This document shows positions 37,844-56,365 of a stretch of 64,000 nucleotides of DNA, in pieces. Numbering within the stretch: the stretch's first letter is position 1; every line of letters starts with the position of its first letter. Made by a program: the position numbers and the translations under genes. Below the pieces are notes generated by a model. That model saw only the letters and a list, made by a program, of their open reading frames with translations. It ran no database searches and was not told where the DNA came from. The DNA is from Rhizobium sp. GN54. Its GTDB lineage: Bacteria > Pseudomonadota > Alphaproteobacteria > Rhizobiales > Rhizobiaceae. The stretch lies in the NCBI RefSeq assembly GCF_021026345.1, contig NZ_JAJNCZ010000002.1, forward strand, positions 62,001 through 126,000, given 5' to 3'.

Positions 37844-39907
37844 TCACTTCCTCAGACGGATCAGGGCGTCTGCCGCGACAACCCCGTCGCCGTCAGCAAG
37901 CACCATGATAGGATTGATATCGAGTTCATCGACAATTGAAGCGTTTGAAACGACATAGGATGCCGCCGATGCGACGGCTGCGACGAGCGCGTCGACGTCG
38001 CCGGGCGGGCCACCGCGATAGCCCTGAAGCAGTTTTGCGATCTTCAGGCCGGAAATCGCCTCGCGGATTGCCCTGTCATCGGTCGGAAGCGTCAGAATGG
38101 CCGAATCTTCCAGCAATTCCACCAGGATTCCGCCCGCACCGACCGTCAGCACCGGACCGGCGACAGGATCGCGCATCGCGCCGACGATGACCTCGGCGAC
38201 GGGGCGGCCGACCATCTTCTCGACGAGATAGCCGGACGCGACGCCGGCCATGGCGGCGGCGGCTTCCAGCACCGCCTCCCGCGTCTGCAGGTTGAGCTTC
38301 ACCGCCCCGGCCTCGGTCTTGTGGGCGACGCCAAGGCCCTTGAGCACGACCGGGAAGCCGAGTGCTTCGGCGGCTTCCGCCGCCTGTGCCGCATTCTCCG
38401 CCACGCGGCCCTCGGGGACGGGAAGGTCGTATGCTGCCAGCGCCGTCTTGGCCTCGTGCTCCGTCAGTGTCACCGGCTCGCCTGCGGCTGTACCAGCCCT
38501 GACCAGCGGCGCGGGCAGGGGCTTCTCCCAGAGGGCGCCGATCGTGGCTGCGGCCTCGGCTGCCGCCAGCGCCTCCTCGATGCCGTAGAAGGGCACGACG
38601 CCGTTTTCCATCAGCATCAGCGCGGTCTCCTCGGGCATGTTTTCGCCCATGCTGGCGACGATGCCGGCGAGTGCGCCCGACGCCCGCGAGGCGTCGATGA
38701 CGGCATGGCAGGTCGTCACCCAGTCGCTCGCGTCGCAGCGGTCGAGGCGGGGAAAATCGAGCACGATCAGGTTCAGCGCATAGCCACCCCGCATCATCGC
38801 GGTGAAGGCTTCGGTCTGCTTCTCGCGGTTGCCCCAGACGAAGGTGTGGTAGTCGAGCGGGTTTGCGATCGTCACCATCTGGCCGAGCGCCTCGCGCAGC
38901 GGCTTTCGCTGTTCTTCGTGCAGCGCCCGGTAGACCACCTTCCGCTTCACCCCGGCATCGGCCATCAGCGAGGCCTCGCCGCCCGAGCAACTCATCGAGG
39001 AGATATCGAAGCTTGCGAGCGGGCCGTGCAGGTGCAGGAGCTTCAGCGTCTCCAGCAGTTCCGGCAGCGTCTCGACGCGGCCGATGCCGAGGCGGGAGAG
39101 AAGTGCGGTGGAGACGGCGTCGTTGCCGGCGAGCGAGGCAGTGTGCGAGACGGTGGCAAGCTGCGCCTGCTCGGACTTGCCGACCTTCAGCGTCACCACC
39201 GGCTTCTTCAGTTCGCGGGCGCGGCGGGCGAGCCGTTCCAGCGCATCGATGCTGTCGAAGCCCTCGATGTGCAGGCCGACGGCGGTGACGCGCGGGTCCT
39301 CGAGCACGGCGCAGGCGAGGTCGCAGAGCCCCGTCTGGGCCTGGTTGCCGGCCGTCAGGATATAGGCGAGCGGTAGCCCGCGCTGCTGCATGGAGATGTT
39401 GCAGGCAATGTTGGAGGACTGGGTGAGGACGGCGACGCCCTTGTCGATCCTGACCATGCCGTGCTGGTCGGGCCAGAGCAGGGCGCCGTCAAGCATGTTG
39501 ATGAAGCCGTAGCAGTTGGGGCCGAGGATCGGCATGTCGCCGGCGGCTTCGACGAGGGATTTCTGCAGGTCGTCGCCGTCGGCAAGCTCGGTCACCGCCT
39601 CGCGGAAGCCCGAGGCGTAGCAAACGGCACCGCCGGCGCCGCGGGCGGCGAGGTCGCGGATGATCTCGATCGTCAGGTTGCGGTTGACGCCGACGAAAGA
39701 GGCGTCGGGAGCCTCGGGGAGGTCTGCGACGGAGCGGTAGCAGCGGCGGCCGTGGATCTCGTCCCTGGTCGGATGGACCGGCCAGATCGCGCCGGCAAAG
39801 CCCATCTTGTCGCACTGTTCGATGACGCGCCCCGCCTCCTTGCCGCCGAAGACGGCGATGGAGCGGGGCCGGATGAGGCGGTCGAGGGAGCGGGTCATGC
39901 TGGTCAT
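37844..39907 (-). CDS. ADP-forming-type acyl-CoA synthetase, likely betaine-CoA ligase
   Basis: A 687-residue single-chain protein has the acetyl-CoA synthetase (ADP-forming) architecture: CoA-binding domain (LIRPRSIAVFGGKEAGRVIE, residues 11-30), succinyl-CoA-ligase-like middle (GPNCYGFINM), and ATP-grasp C-terminal half (LTEHEAKTALAAYDLPVPEG; GFPVVLKGLGVAHKTEAGAV). A histidine in ATVSHTASLAGND is the likely phosphorylation site. Between an acyl-CoA dehydrogenase and a CaiD homologue it probably activates gamma-butyrobetaine, crotonobetaine or carnitine, in place of the AMP-forming CaiC (inference). ATG 39907 has GAGGGGGG seven bases upstream. Confidence 0.82.
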   Translation of the reverse strand: MTSMTRSLDRLIRPRSIAVFGGKEAGRVIEQCDKMGFAGAIWPVHPTRDEIHGRRCYRSVADLPEAPDASFVGVNRNLTIEIIRDLAARGAGGAVCYASGFREAVTELADGDDLQKSLVEAAGDMPILGPNCYGFINMLDGALLWPDQHGMVRIDKGVAVLTQSSNIACNISMQQRGLPLAYILTAGNQAQTGLCDLACAVLEDPRVTAVGLHIEGFDSIDALERLARRARELKKPVVTLKVGKSEQAQLATVSHTASLAGNDAVSTALLSRLGIGRVETLPELLETLKLLHLHGPLASFDISSMSCSGGEASLMADAGVKRKVVYRALHEEQRKPLREALGQMVTIANPLDYHTFVWGNREKQTEAFTAMMRGGYALNLIVLDFPRLDRCDASDWVTTCHAVIDASRASGALAGIVASMGENMPEETALMLMENGVVPFYGIEEALAAAEAAATIGALWEKPLPAPLVRAGTAAGEPVTLTEHEAKTALAAYDLPVPEGRVAENAAQAAEAAEALGFPVVLKGLGVAHKTEAGAVKLNLQTREAVLEAAAAMAGVASGYLVEKMVGRPVAEVIVGAMRDPVAGPVLTVGAGGILVELLEDSAILTLPTDDRAIREAISGLKIAKLLQGYRGGPPGDVDALVAAVASAASYVVSNASIVDELDINPIMVLADGDGVVAADALIRLRK

Positions 39908-39914
39908 GCCGATA

Positions 39915-40196
39915 CCCCCCTCTGCCCTGCCGGGCATCTCCCCCTCAAGGGGGGAGATCGGAGGAGGCCGGGTCTCGCCCGGTGCCTGGCCGTCAGCGGT
40001 CGCTGTGGGGCGGGAGTGGCGCTCGTAGCGGACATCTCCCGTATGGATGAGTGGAACTGCGTGGCTTGCTCTGCTGATGTTCTTGTCAATGTCGCAGCGA
40101 GGGCGGCAGGTCCCGCCGGGGCAATTACGAACGCGGCGCGCGCTTCCGGCCGATCTCCCCCCTTGAGGGGGAGATGCCCGGCAGGGCAGAGGGGGG
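39915..40196. repeat. Composite palindromic repeat, family B, with 47-base perfect inverted arms
   Basis: The arm at 39915-39961 is an exact inverted copy of 40150-40196: both read CCCCCCTCTGCCCTGCCGGG at the outer end and contain a TCTCCCCCTCAAGGGGGGAGA hairpin. The 188 bases between are unique and hold no gene. The element fills the gap between the acyl-CoA dehydrogenase and CoA-ligase genes of the carnitine operon. Confidence 0.9.
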
Positions 40197-40219
40197 TGAA
40201 GGCCACAATCCTCATCGCC

Positions 40220-41380
40220 TCAAGCCCCCAGCGGCCGCAGCAGGTCGCGGCTGATGATGTGGCGCTGGATTTCGGAAGTGCCGTCCCAGATGCGCTCGAC
40301 GCGGGCGTCGCGCCAGAAGCGGGCGAGCGGCAGGTCGTCCATCAGGCCCATGCCGCCATAGATCTGGATCGTCTCGTCGGTGACCCGCGCCAGCATTTCG
40401 GTGGCGAAGACCTTGGCCGAGGCGATCTCGCGGTTGGCCGGCAGGCCCTGGTCGAGGCGCCAGGCGGCCGACAGGGTCAAAAGGTCGGCGGCATCGATTT
40501 CCGTAATCATGTCGGCGAGCTTGAAGGAGACGCCCTGGTTGGCCCCGATCGGCTTGCCGAACTGCTTGCGCTCGGCCGCGTAGGACAGGGCGTAGTCGAA
40601 GACGCGCCGGGCGCGGCCGACAGAGGTGGCGGCGACGGTGATGCGGGTCGCGTACAGCCAGTCGTTGGCGAGGTCGAAGCCGCGATGGACCTCGCCGAGG
40701 ATCTGAGACGACGGCAGGCGGCAGTCGTCGAAGGAGAGTATGCAGTTCTTATAGCCGCGGTGGGAGACGGAGTTGTAGCCCTCGCGGATCTCGAAGCCCG
40801 GCGTGCCGCGGTCGACGAGGAAGCTCGTGATCAGCTTCTTCGGCCCGCGCGGCGTCTGTTCCTCGCCTGTCGCAATGAAGACGATGACGAAGTCGGCGAT
40901 GTTGGCGTGGGAGATGAAGTGCTTGGTGCCATTGACGATCCAGTCGTCGCCGTCCTTCTTGGCGAAGCACTTCATGCCGCGCACGTCGGAGCCGGCGTCC
41001 GGTTCGGTCATGGCCAGCGCATCGAACTTGTCGCCGCGCACCGCCGGGATCAGATATTTCTCGCGCTGCTCGGCGTTGCAACCCATCAGGATGCCGGAGG
41101 GGCGGCCGAAGAACACCGTCAGCGCCATCGAGCCGCGGCCGAGTTCGCGCTCGACCAGGGTAAACGAGGTGTGGTCGAGCCCGGCGCCGCCGACTTCCTC
41201 GGGGAAGTTGCAGCCGAAGAAGCCGATCTCCTTGCACTTCCGGGCGATGTCCTGGCCCAGTTCCGGCGGCACGAAACCCGTGCGCTCCACCTCGTTTTCG
41301 TGCGGATAGATTTCGGTCTCGACGAAGCTGCGGACCGTGTCGACGATCATCTGCTGCTCGTCCGTCAGTGCGAAGTTCAT
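40220..41380 (-). CDS. Acyl-CoA dehydrogenase, likely gamma-butyrobetainyl-CoA dehydrogenase
   Basis: This 386-residue flavoprotein has the acyl-CoA dehydrogenase domains: N-terminal helices (FALTDEQQMIVDTVRSFVET), the FAD-binding LAMTEPDAGSDVRGM near residue 130 and the C-terminal IYGGMGLMDDLPLARFWRD. The position of the usual catalytic Glu in the YEGT-type motif is Asp here (D366 in IWDGTSEIQ). It resembles CaiA, which reduces crotonobetainyl-CoA in E. coli; in an aerobic catabolic operon it more likely oxidises gamma-butyrobetainyl-CoA to crotonobetainyl-CoA. GGAG lies six bases before ATG 41380. No electron-transfer flavoprotein genes are nearby. Confidence 0.85.
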   Translation of the reverse strand: MNFALTDEQQMIVDTVRSFVETEIYPHENEVERTGFVPPELGQDIARKCKEIGFFGCNFPEEVGGAGLDHTSFTLVERELGRGSMALTVFFGRPSGILMGCNAEQREKYLIPAVRGDKFDALAMTEPDAGSDVRGMKCFAKKDGDDWIVNGTKHFISHANIADFVIVFIATGEEQTPRGPKKLITSFLVDRGTPGFEIREGYNSVSHRGYKNCILSFDDCRLPSSQILGEVHRGFDLANDWLYATRITVAATSVGRARRVFDYALSYAAERKQFGKPIGANQGVSFKLADMITEIDAADLLTLSAAWRLDQGLPANREIASAKVFATEMLARVTDETIQIYGGMGLMDDLPLARFWRDARVERIWDGTSEIQRHIISRDLLRPLGA

Positions 41381-41422
41381 GCTGTTCTCCCTCGTTTGTT
41401 CGGGGGCGGCGCCTGCTGGGCT

Positions 41423-41655
41423 GCCCCTCATCCGCCTGCCGGCACCTTCTCCCCGCTGGCGGGGAGAAGGGATTTGCCGCGGCGTCTCGTCCTCTGCCGC
41501 CCGGTCCCATCCGGCCGGGCATGTGAGCCTCGGCCGGTCCGGGTGGTATACAATCTCTCCGCCGGTGCTTCGTTCTCCCGTGAAGCGCCGGGCGTTTGCC
41601 ACTTGTTCCTTCTCCCCGTTCACGGGGAGAAGGTGCCGGCAGGCGGATGAGGGGC
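41423..41655. repeat. Composite palindromic repeat, family B (dehydrogenase gap)
   Basis: Arms at 41423-41470 and 41608-41655 are inverted copies: GCCCCTCATCCGCCTGCCGG, then a CACCTTCTCCCCG...CGGGGAGAAGG hairpin, and the mirror image. About 137 unrelated bases lie between. It separates the fused carnitine dehydrogenase gene from the acyl-CoA dehydrogenase gene, and no coding sequence is present in the 328-base gap. Confidence 0.88.
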
Positions 41656-41708
41656 AACCCCTCCCGGCCCTGCGGGCCACCCTCCCCACAAAGGGGAGGG
41701 ACGAAAGG

Positions 41709-43199
41709 CTAGCGCTTCTGCCCCACATGCCGCCCCGCGCCTTCCGGCACCGGCAGGCGGGCATGGGCTTCGGTCAGCGCCTTTACCTTGTCGAGTACGG
41801 GCGCCGGAGCGGCGACGGCCTTGCCGGCCTTGCTATCCACGTGCAGCATCAGTTGTTCGGCGGTGGCGACGGGTTCGTTGGTCTCGGCATTGTAGATGGT
41901 CGAGAAGAACTGCAGGCGCTTGTCGTCCGAGGACAGGATCTGGCAGGTGGTGTAGAGCGCGTCGCCGAGTTTGGCCTCGCCGAGATGGCGGATGTGGGTC
42001 TCGACGGTGTAGTAGCTGTGGCCGTCGCGGACATAGTCCAGGTCGACGCCGATCAGGCGCAGCACGCCGTCGGAGGTGTCGCCGAAGACCTGCAGGTAGC
42101 GGTGCTCGGTCATGTGGCCGTTATAGTCGACCCAGGCGGCGGAGACCTTGGTGTCGAGGATTTTCAGCGGCTTCACCTCGCCGAGATCGACCTCCGGCTT
42201 TTTCGCGTTCGCCCAGAGATAGTCCTCGAATTCGGTCAGGAGCTTGCCCGCGCCCCAGCCGCGGCCGTCGTCGCCGGCCTTCAGCGCGTGCATGATGCCG
42301 ACGAGGTTCTGGTCGCGGATGCGCTCCAGCTCGCGGATGCCGCGGGCGCCGGACTGGGCGTCGGACTGGTCGGCGATCTTGTTGACCAGTTCGTCGTCCA
42401 GGTCGACCACGTCCATCAGCTTCGTCCACGGCCAGGAGAGGCAGGGGCCGAACTGGGCGAGGAAGTGGCGCATGCCGGCCTCGCCGCCGGCGATGCGGTA
42501 GGTCTCGAACATGCCCATCTGCGCCCAGCGGATGCCGAAGGAGTAGCGGATCACGTCGTCGAGGGTCTCGGTGTCGCAGATGTCGTCCTTGATCAGCCAC
42601 AGGCCCTCGCGCCAGACGGCCTCCAGCAGGCGATCGCCGACGAAGGCCTCGATCTCCTTGTTGATGATCACGCCCTTCATGCCGATGGTGGCGAGCTTGG
42701 CCTTCGCGTCCTCCAGCGTCGCGCGCGCCGTCTTCTCGCCGCCGACGAGTTCGGCGAGCGGCAGCAGATAGACGGGGTTGTAGGGGTGGGCGACGAACAT
42801 GCGCTCGGGATGCTTCATGTCGCGCTGCAGGTCGGTCGGCATGATGCCCGAGGTGGACGAGCCGATCAGCGCCTTCGGGTCTGCTGCCGCGTCGATCTGG
42901 GTGAGGACGCCGCGCTTCAGGTCGACGCGCTCGGGCACGCTTTCCTGAATCCAGTCAGCGCCTTGCACGGCTTCCTCGATGCTCTTGACGAAGGTGAGCC
43001 TGCCCTTCGGCGGCAGCGGCGCCATGGTCAGCATGCCATAGGCCCGCTCGGCGTTCGCCATCACCTCGCCGATGATGCGTTCGGCTTCCGGGTGCGGGTC
43101 GAAGATCGCGACGTCGATGCCGGCGAGCGCAAACCGCGCCGCCCAGGCCCCGCCGATAACGCCGCCGCCGATGCAGGCTGCCTTGGTGATCTTGGTCAT
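41709..43199 (-). CDS. cdhA: L-carnitine dehydrogenase fused to a hotdog thioesterase
   Basis: The 496-residue protein has two parts. Residues 1-320 are a 3-hydroxyacyl-CoA-dehydrogenase-like domain with the NAD motif GGGVIGGAWAARF (11-23), SSTSGIMPTDLQ and the catalytic-type H138 in AHPYNP. This matches carnitine 3-dehydrogenases, which oxidise L-carnitine to 3-dehydrocarnitine. Residues 345-480 are a 4-hydroxybenzoyl-CoA-type hotdog thioesterase (VDYNGHMTEHRYLQVF, with D358). In Pseudomonas these are two proteins, CdhA and CdhB; here they are one chain, as reported for rhizobial carnitine dehydrogenases. The thioesterase would hydrolyse betainyl-CoA to glycine betaine. ATG 43199 follows GAGGG. 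Confidence 0.9.
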   Translation of the reverse strand: MTKITKAACIGGGVIGGAWAARFALAGIDVAIFDPHPEAERIIGEVMANAERAYGMLTMAPLPPKGRLTFVKSIEEAVQGADWIQESVPERVDLKRGVLTQIDAAADPKALIGSSTSGIMPTDLQRDMKHPERMFVAHPYNPVYLLPLAELVGGEKTARATLEDAKAKLATIGMKGVIINKEIEAFVGDRLLEAVWREGLWLIKDDICDTETLDDVIRYSFGIRWAQMGMFETYRIAGGEAGMRHFLAQFGPCLSWPWTKLMDVVDLDDELVNKIADQSDAQSGARGIRELERIRDQNLVGIMHALKAGDDGRGWGAGKLLTEFEDYLWANAKKPEVDLGEVKPLKILDTKVSAAWVDYNGHMTEHRYLQVFGDTSDGVLRLIGVDLDYVRDGHSYYTVETHIRHLGEAKLGDALYTTCQILSSDDKRLQFFSTIYNAETNEPVATAEQLMLHVDSKAGKAVAAPAPVLDKVKALTEAHARLPVPEGAGRHVGQKR

Positions 43200-43222
43200 G
43201 TGGTCGTTCCCTCTCAATTAAG

Positions 43223-43379
43223 ACCCCTCCCCAACCCCTCCCCACAAGGGGGAGGGGCTTAACCTGCCGATCCGCTTTGCCCGCATCGATGGCCCGAATT
43301 GGTGGAAGCAGTTCTGCTGTGTGTCGCCGGCGGCGCCACGGGTTAAGCCCTCCCCCTTGTGGGGAGGGTTGGGAGGGGT
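43223..43379. repeat. Composite palindromic repeat, family B variant (cdhA-cdhC gap)
   Basis: Inverted arms at about 43223-43263 and 43342-43379 read ACCCCTCCCCAACCCCTCCC then CACAAGGGGGAGGGGCTTAA, with the mirror image on the right. It fills nearly the entire 186-base gap between the BKACE gene and the fused dehydrogenase, the third consecutive gap of this operon to be occupied by such an element. Confidence 0.85.
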
Positions 43380-43385
43380 GTTTTC

Positions 43386-44288
43386 TTATCGCTTGGTCAG
43401 CTTCAGCTTCTCGCGCACCTCGGCCGGGCCGATGATGCGGGCGCCCATGTTTTCGACGACGGTGACGGCCTTCTCCACGAGCTGGGCATTCGTCGCGAGC
43501 TGGCCCTTGCCGACATAGAGATTGTCCTCCAGCCCGACGCGAACGTTGCCGCCGGCGAGCACGGCGGCGGCCGGATAGGCCATGGCGTTGCGGCCGATCG
43601 AAAAGGCCGAGAAGGTCCAGTTGGCGGGCACATTGTTGACCATCGCCATGTAGGTGTTGAGGTCGTCGGGCGCGCCCCACGGAATGCCCATGCAGAGCTG
43701 GATCAGCACCGGATCCTGGATCAGGCCTTCCTCGACCAGTTGCTTGGCGAACCACAGATGCCCGGTGTCGAAGGCCTCGATCTCGGGGCGGACGCCGAGG
43801 TCGGTCATCTGCTTTGCCATGGCGCGCAGCATCGACGGCGTGTTCGTCATCACGTAGTCGCCGAGCGAGAAGTTCATCGTGCCGCAGTCGAGCGTGCAGA
43901 TCTCCGGCAGGCACTCGGCGACGTGGGAGACGCGCTCGGTGGCGCCGGCCATGTCGGTGCCCTGTTCCTTCAGCGGCAACGGCTTCTCGACGTCGCCGAA
44001 GATCATGTCGCCGCCCATGCCGGCGGTGAGGTTGAGCACGATGTCGACCTCGGCCTGACGGATGCGGTCGGTCACTTCCTTGTAGAGGTCGTTGCGGCGC
44101 GAGGGCGCGCCTGTCTCGGGATCGCGGACGTGACAGTGGATGACGGCAGCACCGGCCTTGGCGGCCTCCACAGCGGCCTCTGCGATCTGCTTCGGCGTGA
44201 TCGGCACGTGCTTCGACTTGCCGACGGTGTCGCCCGAGCCGGTCACGGCGCAGGTGATGAAGACGTCGCGATTCATGGTCAGGGGCAT
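43386..44288 (-). CDS. cdhC: 3-Dehydrocarnitine cleavage enzyme (BKACE family)
   Basis: This 300-residue TIM-barrel protein belongs to the beta-keto acid cleavage (BKACE, PF05853) family, with the zinc ligands H51 and H53 in VIHCHVRDPETG and the LNLTAGMGGDM strand near residue 86. BKACE enzymes condense a beta-keto acid with acetyl-CoA and cleave it; the carnitine version gives betainyl-CoA and acetoacetate from 3-dehydrocarnitine. Its partner is the dehydrogenase immediately downstream. GGGAG sits seven bases before ATG 44288. It is the first gene of the operon and divergent from the CdhR-type regulator. Confidence 0.9.
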   Translation of the reverse strand: MPLTMNRDVFITCAVTGSGDTVGKSKHVPITPKQIAEAAVEAAKAGAAVIHCHVRDPETGAPSRRNDLYKEVTDRIRQAEVDIVLNLTAGMGGDMIFGDVEKPLPLKEQGTDMAGATERVSHVAECLPEICTLDCGTMNFSLGDYVMTNTPSMLRAMAKQMTDLGVRPEIEAFDTGHLWFAKQLVEEGLIQDPVLIQLCMGIPWGAPDDLNTYMAMVNNVPANWTFSAFSIGRNAMAYPAAAVLAGGNVRVGLEDNLYVGKGQLATNAQLVEKAVTVVENMGARIIGPAEVREKLKLTKR

Positions 44289-44402
44289 TTCGTTCTCCCG
44301 TATTTGTTCGTTGCGGCCATTACGAGCCAAGCCGATGCAACGTGCTTTTCAATTTCGGCGGCATTCTTTACACTTCAGGAAGATTGCGAAGGAGTTGCGC
44401 CG

Positions 44403-45377
44403 ATGCTCGAACCGTCGTCGGACACGCTCGAACTGGACATTCTCGTGCTGCCGGAGACGAACCTGATCCTCGTCGCCTCCGTCATAGAGCCCTTGCGCGC
44501 CGCAAACCGGCTCTCCGGGCAGGACCTCTACCGCTGGCGGCTCTTCTCGCCGGATGGTGCGGCGATCGAGACGCGCAGCCGCATTCCCGTTCCCGTCGAC
44601 GGACCGTTCCGGCCCGAGCAGGAGACGGTGCCGCTGTTCATCCTGTCGAGCTACCAGTGGCAGGCGAGCGCCACGCCTGCGCTCAGGCGGCAACTGTCGC
44701 GTACGGCCCGGCACCGCACGATGATGGCGGGGATCGAATCGGGGAGCTGGCTCCTGGCGCAGGCTTGCCTGCTCGACGGCCACTCGGTGACGATCCACTG
44801 GGAGGATCGCGAGGATTTCGCCGCCGCCTATCCGCAGGTCAACGTGCTGACGGAACGCTATGTCATCGACGGCAAGCGCATCACCAGCGGCGGCTCGCTG
44901 CCGACGCTCGACCTGATGCTCGAGATCATCCGGAGACGGCAGGGCTATTCGCTGGCGCTGGAGGTGTCCAGGATCTTCATCTACGAGCACGAGCGCACCG
45001 GCGGGCTGCTGCAGGTGCCTGCGCTCGGCAATATGCGGGTGGCCGACCAGCGGGTCAGCCAGGCGGTGCGGCTGATGGAGGAGACGGTGGAGGCGCCGGT
45101 GACGCTGACGCGGCTCGCCCGCCGGATCGGCATTTCCGCCCGCCACCTGCAGGACCTGTTCCAGGAGACGATGGGGGTGGCGCCGCACCAGCACTATCTG
45201 GCGCTCAGGCTGAACGCGGCCCGGCGCAAGGTGATCGAGACCAGGCACGAATTCGCCGACATCGCCGCCGCCACCGGCTTCAATTCCTCGTCTGCCTTCT
45301 CCCGCAGCTACCGCGCGCACTATCACGAGAGCCCGACGGAAACACGCCGGCGGCTGCGGACGGCGGGGAAGGGGTGA
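44403..45377 (+). CDS. cdhR: GlxA-type AraC regulator, CdhR-like
   Basis: This 324-residue regulator combines a class I glutamine-amidotransferase-like sensor domain (LDILVLPETNLILVASVIEP at residues 10-29; ESGSWLLAQACLLDG near 112) with a C-terminal AraC DNA-binding domain (LTRLARRIGISARHLQDLFQ; GFNSSSAFSRSYRAHY). The nucleophile elbow has Ser rather than Cys (GIESGSW), so it is a sensor, not an amidotransferase. CdhR and GbdR, which respond to carnitine and betaine in Pseudomonas, have this architecture. It is divergent from the carnitine genes; the 114-base gap should contain its site. AAGGAG lies eight bases before ATG 44403. Confidence 0.87.
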   Translation: MLEPSSDTLELDILVLPETNLILVASVIEPLRAANRLSGQDLYRWRLFSPDGAAIETRSRIPVPVDGPFRPEQETVPLFILSSYQWQASATPALRRQLSRTARHRTMMAGIESGSWLLAQACLLDGHSVTIHWEDREDFAAAYPQVNVLTERYVIDGKRITSGGSLPTLDLMLEIIRRRQGYSLALEVSRIFIYEHERTGGLLQVPALGNMRVADQRVSQAVRLMEETVEAPVTLTRLARRIGISARHLQDLFQETMGVAPHQHYLALRLNAARRKVIETRHEFADIAAATGFNSSSAFSRSYRAHYHESPTETRRRLRTAGKG

Positions 45378-47730: not shown

Positions 47731-49005
47731 TCACCTGCGCGGGGCGGCGTGCCTGTCCGGCGCAGTTTTGCCGGGCGGCGGTGCGGCGGGGTCGCCCTCG
47801 ACCGCGGACAGGATCTCCATCACCGCCTGCGCCGTCTGGCGCGACAGCGCGTTCCGGGGCCAGACGAGGTTCAGGGTCTGCCGGAAGCGGGCGTCGAGGC
47901 GGATCAGCGCCGGCGGGTCGGCAAGGCGGGAGACGGATTGTTCGGGCAGGATCGACAGATAGCCGTGCTCGCGCACGAGATTGACGATGACGGGGATGGA
48001 ATCGACCTCCACCAGCGTCAGCCTCGCCCGCTCGGCAGCAGACAGCGTGCTTGCGATATAGAGGTCGGTCATCTGGCGCAGGCCGCTCCTGGCGCTCGGG
48101 ACGGCGACCGGCAGCCTGCGCAGCAGGTCCGCAACCTCTTCGCCGTCCTTCACCACCGACCTCGAGACGGCGAGCGCCAGCGGCGAACGGCTGACGAGGG
48201 CGCCGTCGAATTCGGCCGGAAAACGATCGACGTCGAGAAGGGCGAGGTCGAACCGGCGGGCCTGCAGGCCGGAGATCAGCTCGTCAGCCGTGGTCGAGGC
48301 GATGAAGAGCGGCTGGCGGGGGTGCTTACCTTGCCAGCCGGCCGCGAGGGTGGCCAGCATGCGGGCAATGTCGCTCTCGTGGCCGAAGGGAATGACGGAG
48401 CCGAGCCGCCACGTCCGCGCGCTCTTGCGGAAGCGCTCGTCGGAAGCCTGCGACAGGTTCGCCCAGATGTTTCCGATGCGCTCGGCGAGCGCAAGGACCG
48501 CGACGCCTGCGTCCGTGCAGGTGACGCCGCCGCGCGAGCGGACGAGCAGGGGGAAGCCGATCTCCCGTTCCAGCCGGGCGAGTTGCCGGGTCAGTTGCGG
48601 CTGTCCGAGCCCGAGCATGCGGGCGGCCCTGCGGATGCTGCCGGCGCCGACCGTCGCGCTGAAGCGGGCGAGGGTCTCGAGCGGGATCTGCGGCATCGGG
48701 CGGACCGGCCGGGGCGGGGTTTGCGGCAAGGGGACGGCCGGGCGGGCGGCGCGTTCGGCGCCGGGGAGAAGCAGTTCCTTCGCCGCCGCTGCGATTTCCG
48801 CCAGCCGATCCATGCGCGCCTGCGCATCGAGCGTCGGTACCAGCATCGCGCCTTCCCGGCGCACGAGCGGCATGGAGATCGCCGCCTCCAGCCGCCGCAG
48901 CGCCGCGCTGGCGCTGGAGGCGGGCCGGCCTTCCAGCCTTGCGGCCGCGCGCACGCTGCCGGTTCGCAGCGTCGCCTCGACGAGGCAGAGTGTGGCAAGA
49001 TCCAT
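47731..49005 (-). CDS. LysR-like regulator with two tandem HTH domains
   Basis: This 424-residue protein has two LysR-type winged HTH domains: one at about residues 1-55 (VEATLRTGSVRAAARLEGRP) and a second at about 105-165 (PLETLARFSATVGAGSIRRA, then GLGQPQLTRQLARLEREIGF). A Pro-rich linker joins them and a standard LysR effector domain follows (TWRLGSVIPFGHESDIARML). Ordinary LysR proteins have one HTH and about 300 residues. GGGAG seven bases before ATG 49005 supports that start. It is divergent from the lyase-hydantoinase operon, and three CGGATA-type half-sites lie between them. Confidence 0.85.
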   Translation of the reverse strand: MDLATLCLVEATLRTGSVRAAARLEGRPASSASAALRRLEAAISMPLVRREGAMLVPTLDAQARMDRLAEIAAAAKELLLPGAERAARPAVPLPQTPPRPVRPMPQIPLETLARFSATVGAGSIRRAARMLGLGQPQLTRQLARLEREIGFPLLVRSRGGVTCTDAGVAVLALAERIGNIWANLSQASDERFRKSARTWRLGSVIPFGHESDIARMLATLAAGWQGKHPRQPLFIASTTADELISGLQARRFDLALLDVDRFPAEFDGALVSRSPLALAVSRSVVKDGEEVADLLRRLPVAVPSARSGLRQMTDLYIASTLSAAERARLTLVEVDSIPVIVNLVREHGYLSILPEQSVSRLADPPALIRLDARFRQTLNLVWPRNALSRQTAQAVMEILSAVEGDPAAPPPGKTAPDRHAAPRR

Positions 49006-49035
49006 TCGCGCGCTCCCGATGCCGGCCATGATTGT

Positions 49036-49078
49036 TCGGATAATGGCATCTACCGTACGGATATTGGGATGTATCCGA
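49036..49078. promoter_or_regulatory. Putative operator: three CGGATA half-sites
   Basis: The 115-base divergent region contains CGGATA at 49037-49042 and 49058-49063, exactly 21 bases apart, and the inverted half TATCCG at 49072-49077, eight bases further on. Two direct sites and one inverted site fit a regulator that carries two DNA-binding domains per chain. Functional binding is inferred. Confidence 0.5.
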
Positions 49079-49120
49079 TTTTTCCACCTTGCATAGAGTT
49101 GTCCGCACAGGGGAACGACA

Positions 49121-50656
49121 ATGCTTGCAAACGCCGAGACCTTCTATCTGACAGGAGAACCGCTGGGCTTTGCCGCGCTGGAGGCCATCGGCCACGCAGC
49201 GACCCGGCCGAAGGCCTGCGAGATGGGCATGGGGCGCATCGGTGCGGCGCGCAAGGTGATCGCCGACCGTCTCGCCTCGGGCCTGCCGGTCTACGGTTCC
49301 AATACCGGCGTCGGCTCGATGAAGGACAAGCTCTGGACGGTCGACGACCTGATGGAGTTCAACCACAACCTCGTCCGGGCGCATCATTTCGGCACCGGTG
49401 AGCCGTTCTCGCTGCCGATCGTGCGCAAGGCGATGGCGATCCGCATCAACACGGCACTGTCAGGCTATTCCGGCTGCAGCCCGGAACTGGTCGGCGCCTT
49501 TCTGGCGCTGCTCGAACGCGACGTCGTCCCCGTGGTGCGCCGGCACGGCTCGATGGGCTGCGCCGATATCGGCCTGATGGGGCAGGTGGCGTCCGTGCTG
49601 ACCGGCGAGGGCGAGGCCTACTTCCAGGGCGAGCGGCTGCCGGCGGCGGTCGCCCTTTCCCGCGCCGGGCTGCAGCCGTTCCGCATGCAGCCGCGCGATG
49701 CGCTGGCCGCGCTCAGCGTCAACGCGATCGCCCATGCGGCGGCGGCCGACGTCACCCGCGAGGCGGCCAAGGCGATCCGCAACCTGATGGTGACGGGGCT
49801 GCTCTCGTCGCTGGCGCTCGGCGCCTCGTCCGACCCCTGGCGGGTGGCCGCAAGGCTTTCCGGCCATGGCGAGGCGCTGGCCGGACGCTGGTTTTCGGCG
49901 CAGGCCGCCTCCTGCGCCTGGCCGAAGCCGTCGGCCATCCACGATCCGCTCAGCCTGCGGATGACGGCGCAGGTGTTCGGCGCCTGCCTCGATACGCTGA
50001 TGAACGCCGCCGAGCGCATCGTCGAGGCGACCGCCCAGACCGACGACAACCCGGTAGTGATCGACGAGTACGTGATGGCGTCCGGCGGCTCGCTGCCGCT
50101 GTCGACGGCGCTCTATGTCGAGGCGGCGCAGACCGGCTTCGCCCATCTCGCCCGCAACGTGCTGAACCGCTGCGTGCTGCTCTCCAACGGCGTGCGCCGC
50201 AACCTGCCGGTCAACCTCGTCGCCCCCGGGGAGGCTGCGACCGGCTTCGGTCCGCTGGTCAAGCTCGCGGTCGAGCTCTACATGCGCATCCAGTCGCTGG
50301 CGCTGCCGATCTCCGCCCAGTCGATCGTCGTCGCCGGCGGGCTGGAGGAGGAGGCGACGTTCCTGCCGCTGATCGTGGAGCGGATGGAGAGCCAGGTGCG
50401 CGACCTGCGCCAGCTCGCGGCACTGGAGGGCATGTTGTCGGCGCAGGCGATCGACCTTGCCGGCGACACTCCGGAGGGCGTCGCCGCGGTCGCCTACGCG
50501 CGGGTGCGGACGGTGACGGAATTCTATCGCAAGGACCGCCTGCTTTCCGCCGAGATCGAGGCGCTGGATCGCGACCTCGCCTGTCCCGATGCGCTCGCCT
50601 CCTTCGCGGCGGCGGCGCCGATGGACGATTTCGACGCGTTCTTTGCGCTGGCGTGA
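49121..50656 (+). CDS. HutH/PAL-superfamily lyase lacking the MIO triad, ergothionase-like
   Basis: The 511-residue protein has the fold and length of histidine ammonia-lyase, including the catalytic-type Y58 in VYGSNTGVG and the end-game TDDNP near 307. The segment that forms the MIO cofactor, normally GSVGASGD, reads GSMGCADIG here (143-151) and is one residue shorter, so MIO cannot form. Also, the usual QDPYSLR is HDPLSLR (274-280), losing the second catalytic Tyr. Ergothionase, which expels trimethylamine from ergothioneine, belongs to this superfamily and, as I recall, needs no MIO because its leaving group is already good. The downstream genes fit that role. Classical HutH activity is unlikely. 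Confidence 0.72.
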   Translation: MLANAETFYLTGEPLGFAALEAIGHAATRPKACEMGMGRIGAARKVIADRLASGLPVYGSNTGVGSMKDKLWTVDDLMEFNHNLVRAHHFGTGEPFSLPIVRKAMAIRINTALSGYSGCSPELVGAFLALLERDVVPVVRRHGSMGCADIGLMGQVASVLTGEGEAYFQGERLPAAVALSRAGLQPFRMQPRDALAALSVNAIAHAAAADVTREAAKAIRNLMVTGLLSSLALGASSDPWRVAARLSGHGEALAGRWFSAQAASCAWPKPSAIHDPLSLRMTAQVFGACLDTLMNAAERIVEATAQTDDNPVVIDEYVMASGGSLPLSTALYVEAAQTGFAHLARNVLNRCVLLSNGVRRNLPVNLVAPGEAATGFGPLVKLAVELYMRIQSLALPISAQSIVVAGGLEEEATFLPLIVERMESQVRDLRQLAALEGMLSAQAIDLAGDTPEGVAAVAYARVRTVTEFYRKDRLLSAEIEALDRDLACPDALASFAAAAPMDDFDAFFALA

Positions 50657-50671
50657 AGAGAGGGGACGCCG

Positions 50672-52054
50672 ATGGCCGAATTCGATCTGGTGGTAAAAGG
50701 AACGGTGGTCCTGCCCGACCGCATCGTCGAGGGCGGCCATGTGGCCGTTCGCGACGGCAAGGTCGTCCATGTCGGGCAGGGGGCGATGCCGGCCGCCCGC
50801 GAGCGCCATGACCTGAAGGGGGCCCTGATCCTGCCCGGCGCGATCGACGCGCAGGTGCATTCGCTGTCGCAGAAGGACCAGGAGGATTTCGTCTGGTCGA
50901 CGCGCTCGGCCGCCGCCGGCGGCGTCACCACGATCGTCGACATGCCCTATGACGAGGGCAACCTCGTCTGCTCGGCCGAGGCCGTCGCACGCAAGGTCGC
51001 GCATGCGGAAAAGCAGGCGCGGGTCGATTTCGCGCTCTATGGAACGATCGACCCGGAGGAGGGGCCGGCGCGCATCGGCGAGATGGTCGAGGCGGGCGTC
51101 GCCGCCTTCAAGTTCTCCACCTTCGGCACCGATCCAAAGCGCTTTCCGCGCATCCCGGCCGCCCTGCTCGAAGACTGCTTCCGCGCGATCGCGCCGACCG
51201 GACTTTCGGCCGGCGTCCACAACGAGGACGACGAGGCGGTGCGGGCGGCGATCGACAAGGTGCGGGCGCTCGGCATCATCGACTGGCGCGCCCACGGCCT
51301 GTCGCGACCGCCGCTGACCGAGCTTCTCGCCACGAACCAGGTCTACGAGACCGGTGCTGCGACCGGCTGCCCGGCCCATGTCGTCCACTGCTCGCTCGGC
51401 CGCGGCTACGAGATCGCGGCCAGCTACCGCGCGCAGGGCCATCGCGCCACGATCGAGTGCTGCATCCACTATCTCACGCTGGACGAGGAAAACGACGTGC
51501 GCCGGCTCGGCGGCAAGGCGAAGATCAACCCGCCGATCCGCCCGCGCGCCGAGGTGGAGAAACTGTGGCGGCACGTGGCGGAGGGCAACGTCACGCTGGT
51601 CTCCACCGATCACGTCAGCTGGTCGGAAGACCGCAAGACCAATCCCGACATGCTTGCGAACGCGTCGGGCGTGCCGGGGCTGGAGGTGATGGTGCCGCTG
51701 TTCGTCAAGGGCGCGCTCGAGCGCGGCATCCCGCTGACGCGCGCGGCCGAGCTGATGAGCCTGAACCCGGCGCGGCATTTCCGTCTCAACCATGTGAAGG
51801 GGGCGCTGGAACCGGGCAAGGATGCCGACATCACCGTGCTGACGCCCGAGCCCTGGACCTACGACGCCGCCGAAAGCGGCCACAACGTTGTCGGCTGGTC
51901 GCCCTATAACGGCATCCGGCTGCCCTGGCGGGTGGCCGGCACATTCCTGCGCGGGAAGCTCGCCTTCGACGGCCGGCGGGTGCTGGCCGAACCGGGCACC
52001 GGCGCCTTCGTGCGGCCGCTGCCGACACGCGTAACACGGGGGGCAGGACAATGA
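50672..52054 (+). CDS. Hydantoinase/dihydroorotase-type amidohydrolase
   Basis: The 460-residue cyclic amidohydrolase has a TIM barrel with metal-ligand positions Q61-V-H63 (PGAIDAQVHS; usually H-x-H), a probable carboxylated K147 (AAFKFSTFG), H183, H236/H239 and D313 (STDHVSW). Such enzymes open hydantoin, dihydropyrimidine or allantoin rings. Beside a carbamoylase and a urocanase homologue the likely reaction is hydantoin-5-propionate to N-carbamoyl-glutamate (inference). It begins 15 bases after the lyase stop and overlaps the carbamoylase gene by four bases (ATGA). Confidence 0.85.
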   Translation: MAEFDLVVKGTVVLPDRIVEGGHVAVRDGKVVHVGQGAMPAARERHDLKGALILPGAIDAQVHSLSQKDQEDFVWSTRSAAAGGVTTIVDMPYDEGNLVCSAEAVARKVAHAEKQARVDFALYGTIDPEEGPARIGEMVEAGVAAFKFSTFGTDPKRFPRIPAALLEDCFRAIAPTGLSAGVHNEDDEAVRAAIDKVRALGIIDWRAHGLSRPPLTELLATNQVYETGAATGCPAHVVHCSLGRGYEIAASYRAQGHRATIECCIHYLTLDEENDVRRLGGKAKINPPIRPRAEVEKLWRHVAEGNVTLVSTDHVSWSEDRKTNPDMLANASGVPGLEVMVPLFVKGALERGIPLTRAAELMSLNPARHFRLNHVKGALEPGKDADITVLTPEPWTYDAAESGHNVVGWSPYNGIRLPWRVAGTFLRGKLAFDGRRVLAEPGTGAFVRPLPTRVTRGAGQ

Positions 52055-53361
52055 GCGCGCCAGGCATCAACCTGCCGGTCGATCCGGCCCGGATCGCCGC
52101 CGTGATCGACGGGCTTGCGGCGATCACCGAACCGGGCCGGCCCTATACGCGGCGGGCGTTCTCGCCGCTCTATCCGGCCGGCCGCGGTTTCCTGCGCGAG
52201 CGCTTCGAGGCGGCGGGGCTGGAGACCCGCATCGACGCCGGCGGCAACCTGATCGGCCGGCGGCCGGGCAAGGTTCCCGGGCTCGGCACGATCATGCTCG
52301 GCTCGCATTCCGACACCGTTCCCGACGGCGGGCGCTTCGACGGCATCGCCGGCGTGGCGGCGGCGCTGGAGGTGGCGCGGTCGCTTGCCGATCGGGGCGT
52401 CGCGCTCGACCACGACCTGGAGATCGTCGATTTCCTCGCCGAGGAAGTGTCGATCTTCGGCGTCTCCTGCATCGGCAGCCGCGGCATGGCCGGCGTCCTG
52501 CCGGAGGAGTGGCTTTCGCGCCAGAGCGGGGAGTTGACGCTGGCCGATGGCATCCGGCAGGCAGGCGGCGACCCGGCGCAGCTTGCAGCCGGCGCGCGCA
52601 CCGACATCCGGGCCTTCATGGAGCTTCACATCGAGCAGGGGCGGGTGCTGGAGGAAGAGAAGTTCGACATCGGCGTCGTCACCGCAATTGCCGGCATCAC
52701 GCGCATCGAGATCGTGGTGGACGGGCGGGCGGACCATGCGGGGACGACGCCGATGGGCGGCCGCGTCGATGCGCTCGCCGCCGCGGCACGGCTGGTGACG
52801 GGGGTGGAGGCGCTGGCTAAATCCCTTGCCGGCGGCCGCTTCCACTTCACCGCCACCGTCGGCGAATTCTCGATCGAGCCGAATGCCGCCAATGTCGTTC
52901 CCTCGCGGGCGAGGCTTCTGATCGATGCGCGCGCCGAGGAACGGACGATGATGGAGCTCTTCGCCAACTCGCTCGACCAGTTGGCCGGAGAGATCGCCCG
53001 CGAGACGAAGACGACCATCGCCGCCCCGCGCCGCATCTCCGACAACCCGCCGACGCCGGCCGACCGGATGCTGGTGGGCGTGCTGGATGCGGCCTGCGTC
53101 ACCGCAGGCGCCAGCAACCGCCGCATGGTGTCCGGCGCGGGCCACGACACCGCCTGGATGGCGCGGGCGACGCGTTCGGCGATGATCTTCGTTCCCTGCC
53201 GCGACGGGCGCAGCCACGCGCCGGAGGAATGGGCGGAGAACGACGACATCGCGATGGGTGCGGCGGTGCTTCTTCACGCCGTGATGCAGCTGGACCGCGA
53301 CCTTCAGGATCATGATCCGTCGGGCCAGGAACCTCGCAATGTGATTCAGGAGAGCGGCTGA
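52051..53361 (+). CDS. M20-family N-carbamoyl-amino-acid amidohydrolase
   Basis: This 436-residue binuclear metallopeptidase-fold enzyme has H86 and D88 (GSHSDTVPDGG), D98 in GRFDGIAG, E131-E132 (LAEEVSIFG) and H193 (ELHIEQG), plus GAGHD and SHAPEE late in the chain. This is the pattern of beta-ureidopropionase/L-carbamoylase/allantoate amidohydrolases. It would split an N-carbamoyl-amino acid into amino acid, CO2 and ammonia. Its partner is the hydantoinase-type enzyme, with which it overlaps. N-carbamoyl-L-glutamate is the predicted substrate from operon context. The next gene starts at its stop codon's last base (TGATG). Confidence 0.88.
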   Translation: MSAPGINLPVDPARIAAVIDGLAAITEPGRPYTRRAFSPLYPAGRGFLRERFEAAGLETRIDAGGNLIGRRPGKVPGLGTIMLGSHSDTVPDGGRFDGIAGVAAALEVARSLADRGVALDHDLEIVDFLAEEVSIFGVSCIGSRGMAGVLPEEWLSRQSGELTLADGIRQAGGDPAQLAAGARTDIRAFMELHIEQGRVLEEEKFDIGVVTAIAGITRIEIVVDGRADHAGTTPMGGRVDALAAAARLVTGVEALAKSLAGGRFHFTATVGEFSIEPNAANVVPSRARLLIDARAEERTMMELFANSLDQLAGEIARETKTTIAAPRRISDNPPTPADRMLVGVLDAACVTAGASNRRMVSGAGHDTAWMARATRSAMIFVPCRDGRSHAPEEWAENDDIAMGAAVLLHAVMQLDRDLQDHDPSGQEPRNVIQESG

Positions 53362-54461
53362 TGGGGCGGATTTTAAAGGAGAAAGACGTCGAGGCAGCCG
53401 TGCGTGGCGGCTCCGTCTATGCCGCCGGCGGCGGCGGATGGGCCGATCACGGCCGCATGCTCGGCCATGCCGCGGTATCGATCGGAAGGCCGGAGCTGAT
53501 CGGCATCGACGAGCTCGCCGATGACGACTGGGTGGCAACCGCTGCCGCGATCGGCGCGCCGGCCTCGACGACGCCGTGGGAGATGCGCGGCGTCGACTAC
53601 GTCAGGGCGGTCGAACTGCTGCAGGAGGCGCTGGGCGAGAAGGTGGCGGCGCTGATGGTCGGCCAGAACGGCAAGTCGTCGACGCTGAACGGTTGGCTGC
53701 CGTCGGCGATCCTCGGCACCAAGGTACTGGACGCGGTCGGCGACATGCGGGCGCACCCCACCGGCGACATGGGATCGATCGGCATGGCCGGCTCGCCCGA
53801 ACCTGTCATCCAGACGGCGGCCGGCGGAAACCGCGAGGAGAGCCGCTATATCGAGCTCGTCGTGCGCGGCGCGACCGCCAAGGTCTCGCCGGTTCTGCGC
53901 ACCGCCGCCGACCAGTCCGGCGGCTTCATCGCCTCGTGCCGCAATCCGCTCCGGGCCTCCTATGTGCGCGCCAACGCAGCCCTCGGCGGCATCTCGCTGG
54001 CGCTGAAGCTCGGCGAGGCGATCCTGGCGGCCGAGGCGCGCGGCGGGACAGCGGTGATCGACGCGATCGTCACCACCACCGGCGGGGCGATCCTGTCGGT
54101 GGGGACGATCACGGAGAAGTCGGTTACCTACACAAAGGAAGCCTTCGACATCGGCACGGTGACGCTCGGTCGCGGCGACAACGCGGTCATCCTGCACGTG
54201 ATGAACGAGTACATGGCGGTGGCGTCCGCCGGCGGCGTGCGGCTTGCGACCTTCCCGGACGTGATCACGACGCTCTCGCCGGAGGGCGAACCCTTGAGCG
54301 TCGGCCAGCTCGAGGTCGGGATGCGGGTCTTCGTGCTGCATGTGCCGAAGACGGTCATTCCGCTGGCGTCGAGCGTGCTGGACCCGACGGTCTATCCGCC
54401 GGTGGAGAAGGCGATGGGGATCGAGTTGGCACGGTATGCGCTGGGTTCACCTTCCTCTTGA
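53361..54461 (+). CDS. DUF917-family protein, probable (S-methyl) thiohydantoin desulfurase
   Basis: A 366-residue protein of the DUF917 family (PF06032): AAGGGGWADHGRMLGHAAVS near residue 22, LMVGQNGKSSTLNGWLPSAI, DAVGDMRAHPTGDMGSIGM near residue 127 and the AHPTGDMGS motif with candidate metal ligands. I recall that this family has been renamed after S-methyl-thiohydantoin desulfurase, which replaces a ring sulfur by oxygen to give a hydantoin. The neighbouring hydantoinase would then act on the product. The start overlaps the carbamoylase stop by one base, implying coupling. A direct desulfhydrase acting on the unmethylated thiohydantoin is the alternative. Confidence 0.78.
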   Translation: MGRILKEKDVEAAVRGGSVYAAGGGGWADHGRMLGHAAVSIGRPELIGIDELADDDWVATAAAIGAPASTTPWEMRGVDYVRAVELLQEALGEKVAALMVGQNGKSSTLNGWLPSAILGTKVLDAVGDMRAHPTGDMGSIGMAGSPEPVIQTAAGGNREESRYIELVVRGATAKVSPVLRTAADQSGGFIASCRNPLRASYVRANAALGGISLALKLGEAILAAEARGGTAVIDAIVTTTGGAILSVGTITEKSVTYTKEAFDIGTVTLGRGDNAVILHVMNEYMAVASAGGVRLATFPDVITTLSPEGEPLSVGQLEVGMRVFVLHVPKTVIPLASSVLDPTVYPPVEKAMGIELARYALGSPSS

Positions 54462-54509
54462 GGGGGAGGCTCCGTGCCGGGTGCCGGGGTTGGCGTGATG
54501 CACCGAATT

Positions 54510-54651
54510 CTCTTCTCCCCTCGGGGAGAAGATGCCCGTCAGGGCAGATGAGGGGGACGGGGCGTGTCTCCGCAGTGAGACGGCGGACGGGGCTGCGGAG
54601 CCCCCCTCATCCGGCCCTTCGGGCCACCTTCTCCCCGAGGGGAGAAGAGGG
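54510..54651. repeat. Composite palindromic repeat, family B (before the urocanase homologue)
   Basis: Inverted arms at 54510-54556 (CTTCTCCCCTCGGGGAGAAG with GCCCGTCAGGGCAGATGAGG) and 54601-54651 (CCCCCCTCATCCGGCCCTTC with CTTCTCCCCGAGGGGAGAAG) lie in the 242-base gap between the DUF917 gene and the urocanase homologue. They show this operon carries the same element as the carnitine and polyamine operons. Confidence 0.85.
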
Positions 54652-54703
54652 AGCGTGCGGCAGGCGCGGCGCAAAACAGAAGCACATGTCGAGAGGATAC
54701 ACC

Positions 54704-56365
54704 ATGCCCACACCCAATCCCCGCCATCCGAACTTCCCCATCCCCGGCGGCCCGGTGCTGCGCGCGAAGGGCTGGCGGCAGGAGGCGTTGCTGCGGCTTC
54801 TGGAAAACGTGCTCTCGGTCGGCGAGGATCCGGACAATCTCGTGGTCTATGCCGCACTCGGCAAGGCGGCGCGCAACTGGGCCTCGCACGGGGCGATCGT
54901 CAGGGCGCTGTGCGAGATGGAGGAGGACCAGACGCTGCTGATCCAGTCGGGCAAGCCGGTGGGGCTGCTCAGGACACATACCAGGGCGCCGCTCGTCATC
55001 ATGGCCAACTGCAACATCGTCGGCCAGTGGGCGAAGGCGGAGGTGTTTTATGAACTGCAGCGCAAGGGGCTGATCTGCTGGGGCGGGCTAACGGCCGGCG
55101 CCTGGCAGTATATCGGCAGCCAGGGCGTGATCCAGGGCACCTACGAGATCTTCATGCGTATCGCCGAGAAGCGCTTCGAAGGCTCGCTCGCCGGCCGCTT
55201 CATCCTGACGGCGGGCCTCGGCGGCATGGGCGGGGCGCAGCCGCTCGCCGGCCGCATGGCGGGCGCTGCGATCCTCTGCGTCGACATCGACCCGCAGCGG
55301 GCGGAGAAGCGCAAGGCAGTCGGTTACCTGGAACACGTGGCGCCCGATCTCGATACGGCGCTCGCGATGATCGATGCGGCGGTAAAGGAGAAGCGCGCCA
55401 CCTCGATCGGGCTGGTCGGCAACGCGGCGGAGGTCTATCCGGAAATCGCGCGGCGCGGCATCGTGCCTGATATCGTCACCGACCAGACCTCGGCGCACGA
55501 TCTCGTCTACGGCTACGTGCCGAAGGGGATGAGCATCGATCAGGTGCGATCCCTGCGCGAGGACGGGCAGGGGCAACTGATGGCGGCCAGCCGCGCCTCG
55601 ATCGTCGAGCATGTCGGCGCCATGCTGGATTTCCAGCGGAAGGGTGCGGAGGTGTTCGACAACGGCAACCTGATCCGTACCCAGGCGCGCGAGGGCGGGG
55701 TATCGAACGCCTTCGACATCCCGATCTTCACCGAAGCCTATCTGCGGCCGCTGTTTGCCCGCGCGATCGGCCCGTTTCGCTGGATGGCGCTATCGGGCGA
55801 GGAGAGCGACATCGCCCGTATCGACGACCTGCTGCTGTCGATGTTCCCGGACAACCGCATCGTCACCAACTGGATCCGGCTGGCGCGCGACAACGTCCCC
55901 TTCGAGGGGCTTCCGGCGCGGATCGCCTGGCTCGGCCATGGCGAGCGCACCGAGCTGGCGCTGGCGGTTAACCGGCTGGTGGAAGACGGTGAACTGAAAG
56001 GGCCGGTTGCCTTCTCCCGCGACCACCTCGACGCCGGCGCCATGGCCCATCCCAACATCATGACCGAGCGGATGAAGGACGGTTCGGATGCTATCGCCGA
56101 CTGGCCGCTGCTCGACGCCATGCTGCTGTCATCGTCGATGGCCGATCTCGTCGTCGTCCATTCCGGCGGCGGCGGCTATGCCGGCTACATGACGAGCTGC
56201 GGCGTCACCGTCATCGCTGACGGCACAGACGCGGCGGCCGAGCGGCTGGAGCATGCGCTGACCAACGATACGGCGCTCGGCGTGATCCGCTATGCGGACG
56301 CGGGGTACGAGGAGTCCCTCGACGAGATTGCGGCGAAAGGGATCGGGCACGTTCCCGTGGGGTGA
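54704..56365 (+). CDS. Urocanase (HutU) homologue lacking the catalytic Cys, probable thiourocanate hydratase
   Basis: The 553-residue protein is co-linear with urocanate hydratase. It keeps the NAD motif AGLGGMGGAQPLAGRM (170-185), DQTSAHDLVYGY (260-271), GPFRWMALSGE and RDHLD. Key positions differ: the catalytic Cys of LPARICW (Cys410 in Pseudomonas putida) is Ala (A408), SPNRETE is HPNIMTE, and the HHGGGVGMG loop is HSGGGGYAG. These are at the substrate end, so a modified urocanate is the likely substrate. In this operon, hydration of thiourocanate or S-methyl-thiourocanate to a thiohydantoin is predicted. GAGAGGA precedes ATG 54704. No canonical imidazolonepropionase or formimidoylglutamase gene is present. 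Confidence 0.82.
   Translation: MPTPNPRHPNFPIPGGPVLRAKGWRQEALLRLLENVLSVGEDPDNLVVYAALGKAARNWASHGAIVRALCEMEEDQTLLIQSGKPVGLLRTHTRAPLVIMANCNIVGQWAKAEVFYELQRKGLICWGGLTAGAWQYIGSQGVIQGTYEIFMRIAEKRFEGSLAGRFILTAGLGGMGGAQPLAGRMAGAAILCVDIDPQRAEKRKAVGYLEHVAPDLDTALAMIDAAVKEKRATSIGLVGNAAEVYPEIARRGIVPDIVTDQTSAHDLVYGYVPKGMSIDQVRSLREDGQGQLMAASRASIVEHVGAMLDFQRKGAEVFDNGNLIRTQAREGGVSNAFDIPIFTEAYLRPLFARAIGPFRWMALSGEESDIARIDDLLLSMFPDNRIVTNWIRLARDNVPFEGLPARIAWLGHGERTELALAVNRLVEDGELKGPVAFSRDHLDAGAMAHPNIMTERMKDGSDAIADWPLLDAMLLSSSMADLVVVHSGGGGYAGYMTSCGVTVIADGTDAAAERLEHALTNDTALGVIRYADAGYEESLDEIAAKGIGHVPVG

Follow-up and report, generated by a model that had tools for sequence, protein, structure and literature searches.

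A putative ergothioneine catabolic operon with a divergent lyase in Rhizobium sp. GN54 and related bacteria

Introduction

Ergothioneine, a fungal antioxidant, is reportedly degraded to glutamate in five steps by Burkholderia sp. HME13, whose ergothionase is BAM63550. The only solved ergothionase is that of Treponema denticola (6s7j/6s7q), and curated models of an ergothioneine catabolic (ert) pathway are included in NCBIfam 20.0, together with models for the homologous hydratase and desulfurase of an S-methyl-ergothioneine pathway (NF058531 and NF058532), to which the solved S-methyl-thiourocanate enzyme 8q9u belongs. A BLAST survey of 2026 places ergothionase in few genera, admits that divergent homologues went uncounted and cites Muramatsu et al. 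2013 for ergothioneine degradation in Burkholderia sp. HME13 (PMC13405746). Here we describe a five-gene operon of the soil-type bacterium Rhizobium sp. GN54, located at positions 49121-56365 of a 64,000-nucleotide stretch of contig NZ_JAJNCZ010000002.1 (hereafter the window). The operon is very probably an inducible ert operon, by which ergothioneine would be converted to trimethylamine, sulfide and glutamate. The pathway is already described in other bacteria, and the operon is a further case in the Mycoplana group.

Gene organization and proposed pathway

Five open reading frames (ORFs) occupy the locus, all on the + strand, as in a preliminary description of this DNA, and the protein classes given there agree with the Pfam assignments of all five products: Lyase_aromatic (PF00221), Amidohydro_1, Peptidase_M20, the N- and C-terminal S-Me-THD domains (formerly DUF917) and three urocanase domains.

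49121..50656, + strand: ertA-like gene for a lyase without 4-methylideneimidazole-5-one (MIO), proposed ergothionase (Pfam Lyase_aromatic, 6s7j match, active-site residues, tree)
50672..52054, + strand: ertD, predicted hydantoin-5-propionate amidohydrolase (NF058538)
52051..53361, + strand: ertE, predicted N-carbamyl-L-glutamate amidohydrolase of the M20 family (NF058540)
53361..54461, + strand: predicted thiohydantoin desulfurase of the DUF917/S-Me-THD family (NF058529)
54704..56365, + strand: predicted thiourocanate hydratase, a urocanase homologue without the active-site Cys (NF058530; best PDB match, 7ned)

The start of the hydratase gene was set at ATG 54704. Overlapping starts, initially described for the operon as a whole, were found only between genes 2 and 3 (4 bp) and genes 3 and 4 (1 bp); genes 1 and 2 are separated by 15 bp and genes 4 and 5 by 242 bp. 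Because the same gene order recurs in 16 loci of named genomes (see below), the five-gene set is not a chance arrangement.

In the proposed pathway, the MIO-less lyase would eliminate trimethylamine from ergothioneine to form thiourocanate, which the NAD+-dependent urocanase homologue would hydrate to a thiohydantoin-propionate. The DUF917 protein would then take off sulfur as sulfide, leaving hydantoin-5-propionate, the amidohydrolase would open the ring to N-carbamoyl-glutamate, and the M20 enzyme would release glutamate, CO2 and ammonia. NAD+ dependence is a feature of urocanase-type hydratases, and the five steps are those proposed for Burkholderia sp. HME13. The operon would be regulated by a LysR-type protein. 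The proteins had been matched to these steps in the preliminary description, and the match holds: curated cut-offs were passed for steps 2-5, and step 1 is proposed from active-site features and context.

Enzymes of steps 2-5

The pathway enzymes were scored against the curated NCBIfam 20.0 models NF058530, NF058529, NF058538 and NF058540 with their own cut-offs. All four passed: the hydratase scored 1047.8 bits (cut-off, 930), the desulfurase 585.5 (440), ErtD 798 (600) and ErtE 588.9 (520). ErtE scored higher on a generic Zn-dependent hydrolase model (NF009531; 654.2, cut-off 486), and the hydratase also passed the broad hutU model (690.6, cut-off 375). The HutU of the same genome passed the hutU model (965.7) and missed both thio models. 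The best PDB match of the hydratase was 7ned (812 bits), a thiourocanate enzyme, followed by 1x87 (610.8); 8q9u scored 583.4. The loss of the active-site Cys that had been noticed in this protein is evident from the motif ARIAW, which replaces ARICW of the urocanases 1x87 and 1w1u; since 7ned and 8q9u both read ARIGW, Cys loss alone cannot separate thio from S-methyl enzymes.

The preliminary description named either ergothioneine or its S-methyl form as the substrate. If the operon were tuned to S-methyl-ergothioneine, the lyase would yield S-methyl-thiourocanate and the DUF917 enzyme would release methanethiol; the hydratase and desulfurase are indeed homologous to the S-methyl enzymes (738.7 bits with NF058531 and 285.9 with NF058532), and 8q9u is related to the hydratase. 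However, both S-methyl models were missed (cut-offs of 880 and 450, respectively) whereas both plain-thio models were passed, and 7ned outscored 8q9u. Plain ergothioneine is therefore favoured, and specificity for the S-methyl form is very unlikely. The curated models thus show steps 2-5 to belong to families predicted to act on plain thio rather than S-methyl substrates.

Lyase as a candidate ergothionase

The lyase has a fold like that of histidine ammonia-lyase (HAL) without the MIO triad, as indicated by Pfam, the loop reading and the AlphaFold model. It missed the hutH model TIGR01225 (215.1 bits, cut-off 539.15), and its best PDB sequence match was 6s7j (187.7 bits), ahead of 7tqr (Thermoplasma HAL; 147.5) and Pseudomonas HAL (~123). 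Its loop reads GSMGCA-D, with two residues instead of the three found in GSVGASGD of the HutH homologue of the same genome, which bears out the earlier view of the enzyme as MIO-less. Cys-Ala stands in place of the MIO Ala-Ser-Gly, one residue short, in 14 distinct operon lyases (12 of 12 and 6 of 6 in two sets sharing four genes); 6s7j has Glu-Gly, likewise one residue short.

Further positions with known roles in HAL also link the window lyase to 6s7j. The HAL Asn-Gly-Thr stretch is Ser-x-Asn-Ala in both (Ser199 in the window lyase), and the Tyr of the HAL QDPY motif is Leu in both (Leu277), as it is in loci L063 and L088-L092 (L and G numbers denote loci and genomes, respectively). Lys381 is present in 7 of 7 operon lyases compared, in 6s7j and in the MIO-less lyase L092, but not in the HALs L080 and L081. 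The alignment covered the window and 19 of 33 lyase loci. In a tree of 24 rows, nine of the 22 distinct operon lyases were included; a branch (97/93) sets these nine and 6s7j apart from the other rows, and L092 joins them next (100/99), subject to the long-branch warning discussed below. On the basis of these features and the gene context, the lyase is inferred to be an ergothionase.

Other lyases encountered in the comparison also depart from the HAL pattern. L092 (G366:C1:25348-26703) is 31% identical to the window lyase and carries the loop GSIGAADL and an equivalent of Lys381, and in L088-L091 (G017, G221, G366 and G035) the MIO loop is replaced by GS-x-G-Y-L, which is three residues shorter. 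The operon lyase of Rhizobium alarense (L049, 1987-3693) is ~58 residues longer than that of the window.

Conservation and distribution

When named genomes were searched with the lyase, 33 loci were recovered, 17 of which were mapped for gene order. The complete five-gene order was found in 16 of the 33 (L034-L049), which are recorded as Mycoplana azooxidifex, Rhizobium subbaraonis, R. rhizolycopersici, Rhizobiales isolate AFS054471, eleven Shinella and Rhizobium alarense. The lyase of Mycoplana azooxidifex is 96% identical to that of the window. The lyases of the remaining 17 loci are 26-38% identical, and the one mapped among them (L050) has the lyase alone; the loop, read in 13 of these 17 (all but L055 and L064-L066), is ASG in nine, ACG in three and another sequence in one.

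The hydratase exceeded its cut-off in 10 of the 121 relatives scored and in 6 of the 398 genomes from the phylum, giving 13 distinct genomes including the window's own, five of which are records among the 16 named loci. The desulfurase exceeded its cut-off in the same six of 398 phylum genomes, both phylum counts being based on at most three or four candidates scored per genome; because the six genomes are related, these co-occurrences are not six independent events. Beside the hydratase, the hydantoinase and desulfurase genes were found in all 13 genomes, the M20 gene in 12 (not G400) and the lyase gene in 11 (not G055 or G400). The window genome is congeneric with G002, G004, G005 and G006.

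In G077, transporter-like genes separate the lyase gene from the rest of the operon. These ABC transporter-like genes (L024, 15129-18315), recognized by eye between the lyase and hydantoinase genes, are a candidate ergothioneine importer. In G400, the hydantoinase gene is preceded by permease-like ORFs, again identified by eye, and by a gene related to the ATPase of the L024 transporter (35%). A whole-genome lyase-profile search recovered a single lyase from G055 and a single one from G400, and the ASG triad of both is intact. The lyase-less clusters of G055 and G400 may take up and use thiourocanate directly; thiourocanate cross-feeding is mentioned for gut bacteria in the 2026 survey (PMC13405746).

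Regulator and candidate operator

Three further features belong to the operon region:

47731..49029, - strand: LysR-type regulator gene, divergent, two HTH_1 stretches, likely operon regulator (Pfam)
49034..49070, + strand: candidate operator, direct repeat in the regulator-lyase intergenic region, 49030-49120 (both copies in the window; block conservation)
54510..54649, no strand assigned: 36-nt inverted repeat with arms 86% complementary, in the desulfurase-hydratase gap (repeat search)

The two HTH_1 stretches were identified by Pfam in the window protein. Of the 13 genomes, eight (G000, G002, G004, G005, G006, G009, G017 and G400) have a regulator homologue at the operon, as do all 16 named loci (L034-L049), and the operon stretches of G035, G055, G077, G221 and G366 gave no match. 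The direct repeat consists of two 16-bp copies, GTTCGGATAATGGCAT at 49034 and GTACGGATATTGGGAT at 49055, spaced 21 bp start to start. Using a pattern written from both copies, two matches at ≤3 mismatches were obtained in 31 of 100 shuffles and are thus not rare by chance. Of 18 loci, 16 (the window and L034-L048; not L025 or L029) conserve a 37-bp block that covers both copies and whose pattern was derived from the alignment of the loci. This block is a candidate operator, from which the LysR-type protein probably controls the operon, possibly with one DNA-binding head per repeat copy.

The desulfurase-hydratase gap differs among relatives, and the inverted repeat within it thus looks like a later insertion, probably outside the pathway. 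A guessed palindrome pattern for this gap gave no matches in the window, and the true arms were found by the repeat search.

Genomic context

The genes for imidazolonepropionase and formimidoylglutamase had been described as absent, which is true of the vicinity of the operon but not of the genome. Another contig encodes HutU, HutG (N-formylglutamate deformylase), HutI and HutF, each over the cut-off of its model, and between them a HutH homologue with an intact ASG triad; this protein and the operon lyase are the two lyases of the genome. Because the genome has a separate hut pathway, the missing hut genes nearby prove little, and the ert operon is an addition rather than a replacement. EgtD was not found in the window genome, a soft negative given that 1 of 14 control genomes gave a match, below the cut-off; the substrate would therefore be scavenged.

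A carnitine 3-dehydrogenase over its cut-off (891 bits, cut-off 592) is encoded beside the operon, and no equivalog cut-off was passed by the nearby BKACE-type enzyme, acyl-CoA dehydrogenase and GbdR-like regulator.

37844..45377: genes for carnitine 3-dehydrogenase, BKACE-type enzyme, acyl-CoA dehydrogenase and GbdR-like regulator

This cluster probably serves carnitine catabolism. All 15 loci from L034 to L048 have carnitine dehydrogenase and BKACE-type genes close to the ert operon, and L029 has a BKACE-type gene there; a search for both genes was negative in the stretches of L022, L024, L025, L030, L049 and L071-L073, among which L025 and L049 are one short contig. The adjacency may arise because both substrates have a trimethylammonium group. 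As another sign of quaternary-amine metabolism, a Rieske oxygenase gene (1064-2296) is followed by a divergent MTTB-family gene (2659-4149) in the window. Four MTTB-family genes exceeded the cut-off in the genome.

Evaluation of the substrate assignment

Several observations weigh against ergothioneine catabolism as the function of the operon. The hydratase, desulfurase, ErtD and ErtE all exceed the cut-offs of the NCBIfam 20.0 ert pathway, but no ergothionase model was returned for the lyase in the same search. Identity between the lyase and the Treponema denticola ergothionase is only 26-29%; the two are joined in the tree and share the shortened MIO-less loop, Ser-x-Asn-Ala, the Leu for the HAL Tyr and the Lys381 equivalent, but not the loop residues themselves (Cys-Ala and Glu-Gly, respectively). 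The tree program warns of long branches meeting at that join. The AlphaFold model of the lyase (pLDDT, a predicted per-residue accuracy score, of 74.7) fits HAL and ergothionase to the same degree. The genes beside the operon include no evident dedicated importer, and the L024 binding protein (OpuBC-like by eye) had no match in the window genome in a search run without a positive control. A type III glutamine synthetase (TIGR03105), a marker of trimethylamine use, did not exceed its cut-off in the genome. Finally, 2 of the 13 genomes, G055 (L030) and G400 (L073), have clusters without the lyase.

The grouping and comparison checks suggested in the preliminary description thus gave mixed results: sequence score and tree, the latter subject to the long-branch warning, side with 6s7j, and the models of the thio hydratase and desulfurase were passed while the S-methyl ones were missed, but overall fold does not separate the lyase from HAL. 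Because the fold comparison is a tie, the lyase is named from active-site features and context, not from fold.

The distance of the lyase from the Treponema enzyme would also suit a route in which ergothioneine sulfonate is the substrate and sulfite leaves instead of sulfide. Catabolism of this compound is reported by Yan et al. (ACS Catal. 2022), as cited in PMC13405746 for an Agrobacterium radiobacter enzyme. Such a route should need no thiohydantoin desulfurase, however, and the window proteins passed the models of both this enzyme and thiourocanate hydratase; ergothioneine sulfonate is thus a highly improbable substrate. A redundant ammonia-lyase for histidine or another amino acid, within an operon for histidine use, can be practically dismissed as an explanation, as the MIO triad is missing in 14 of 14 distinct operon lyases read, the hutH score is far below its cut-off and a hut pathway exists elsewhere in the genome.

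Within the favoured interpretation of the locus as an ert operon, a broader scenario can be drawn. Rhizobial ert operons would form their own MIO-less lyase branch, a two-headed LysR-type regulator in Mycoplana and Shinella would read the paired 16-bp repeat, and the lyase-less forms in G055 and G400 would feed on thiourocanate that escapes from neighbours with an ergothionase, so that a guild of soil bacteria would exploit a fungal antioxidant by cross-feeding. We consider this scenario unlikely, and slightly more so than at first, because the regulator is present at 8 of 13 operons and the second head was tested in the window protein only.

Significance

No paper was recognized in a literature search as describing this gene cluster, although absence from print is not claimed. 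The operon lyases may be divergent homologues of the kind left uncounted in the 2026 survey (PMC13405746). The locus belongs to a conserved, probable ergothioneine-utilization operon that is shared by Shinella, the Mycoplana group and their relatives and often adjoins carnitine genes. Its interest is modest and lies in the divergent lyase, the regulator and the lyase-less relatives; the well-aligned divergent lyases and the candidate operator provide material for testing ergothionase specificity and control.
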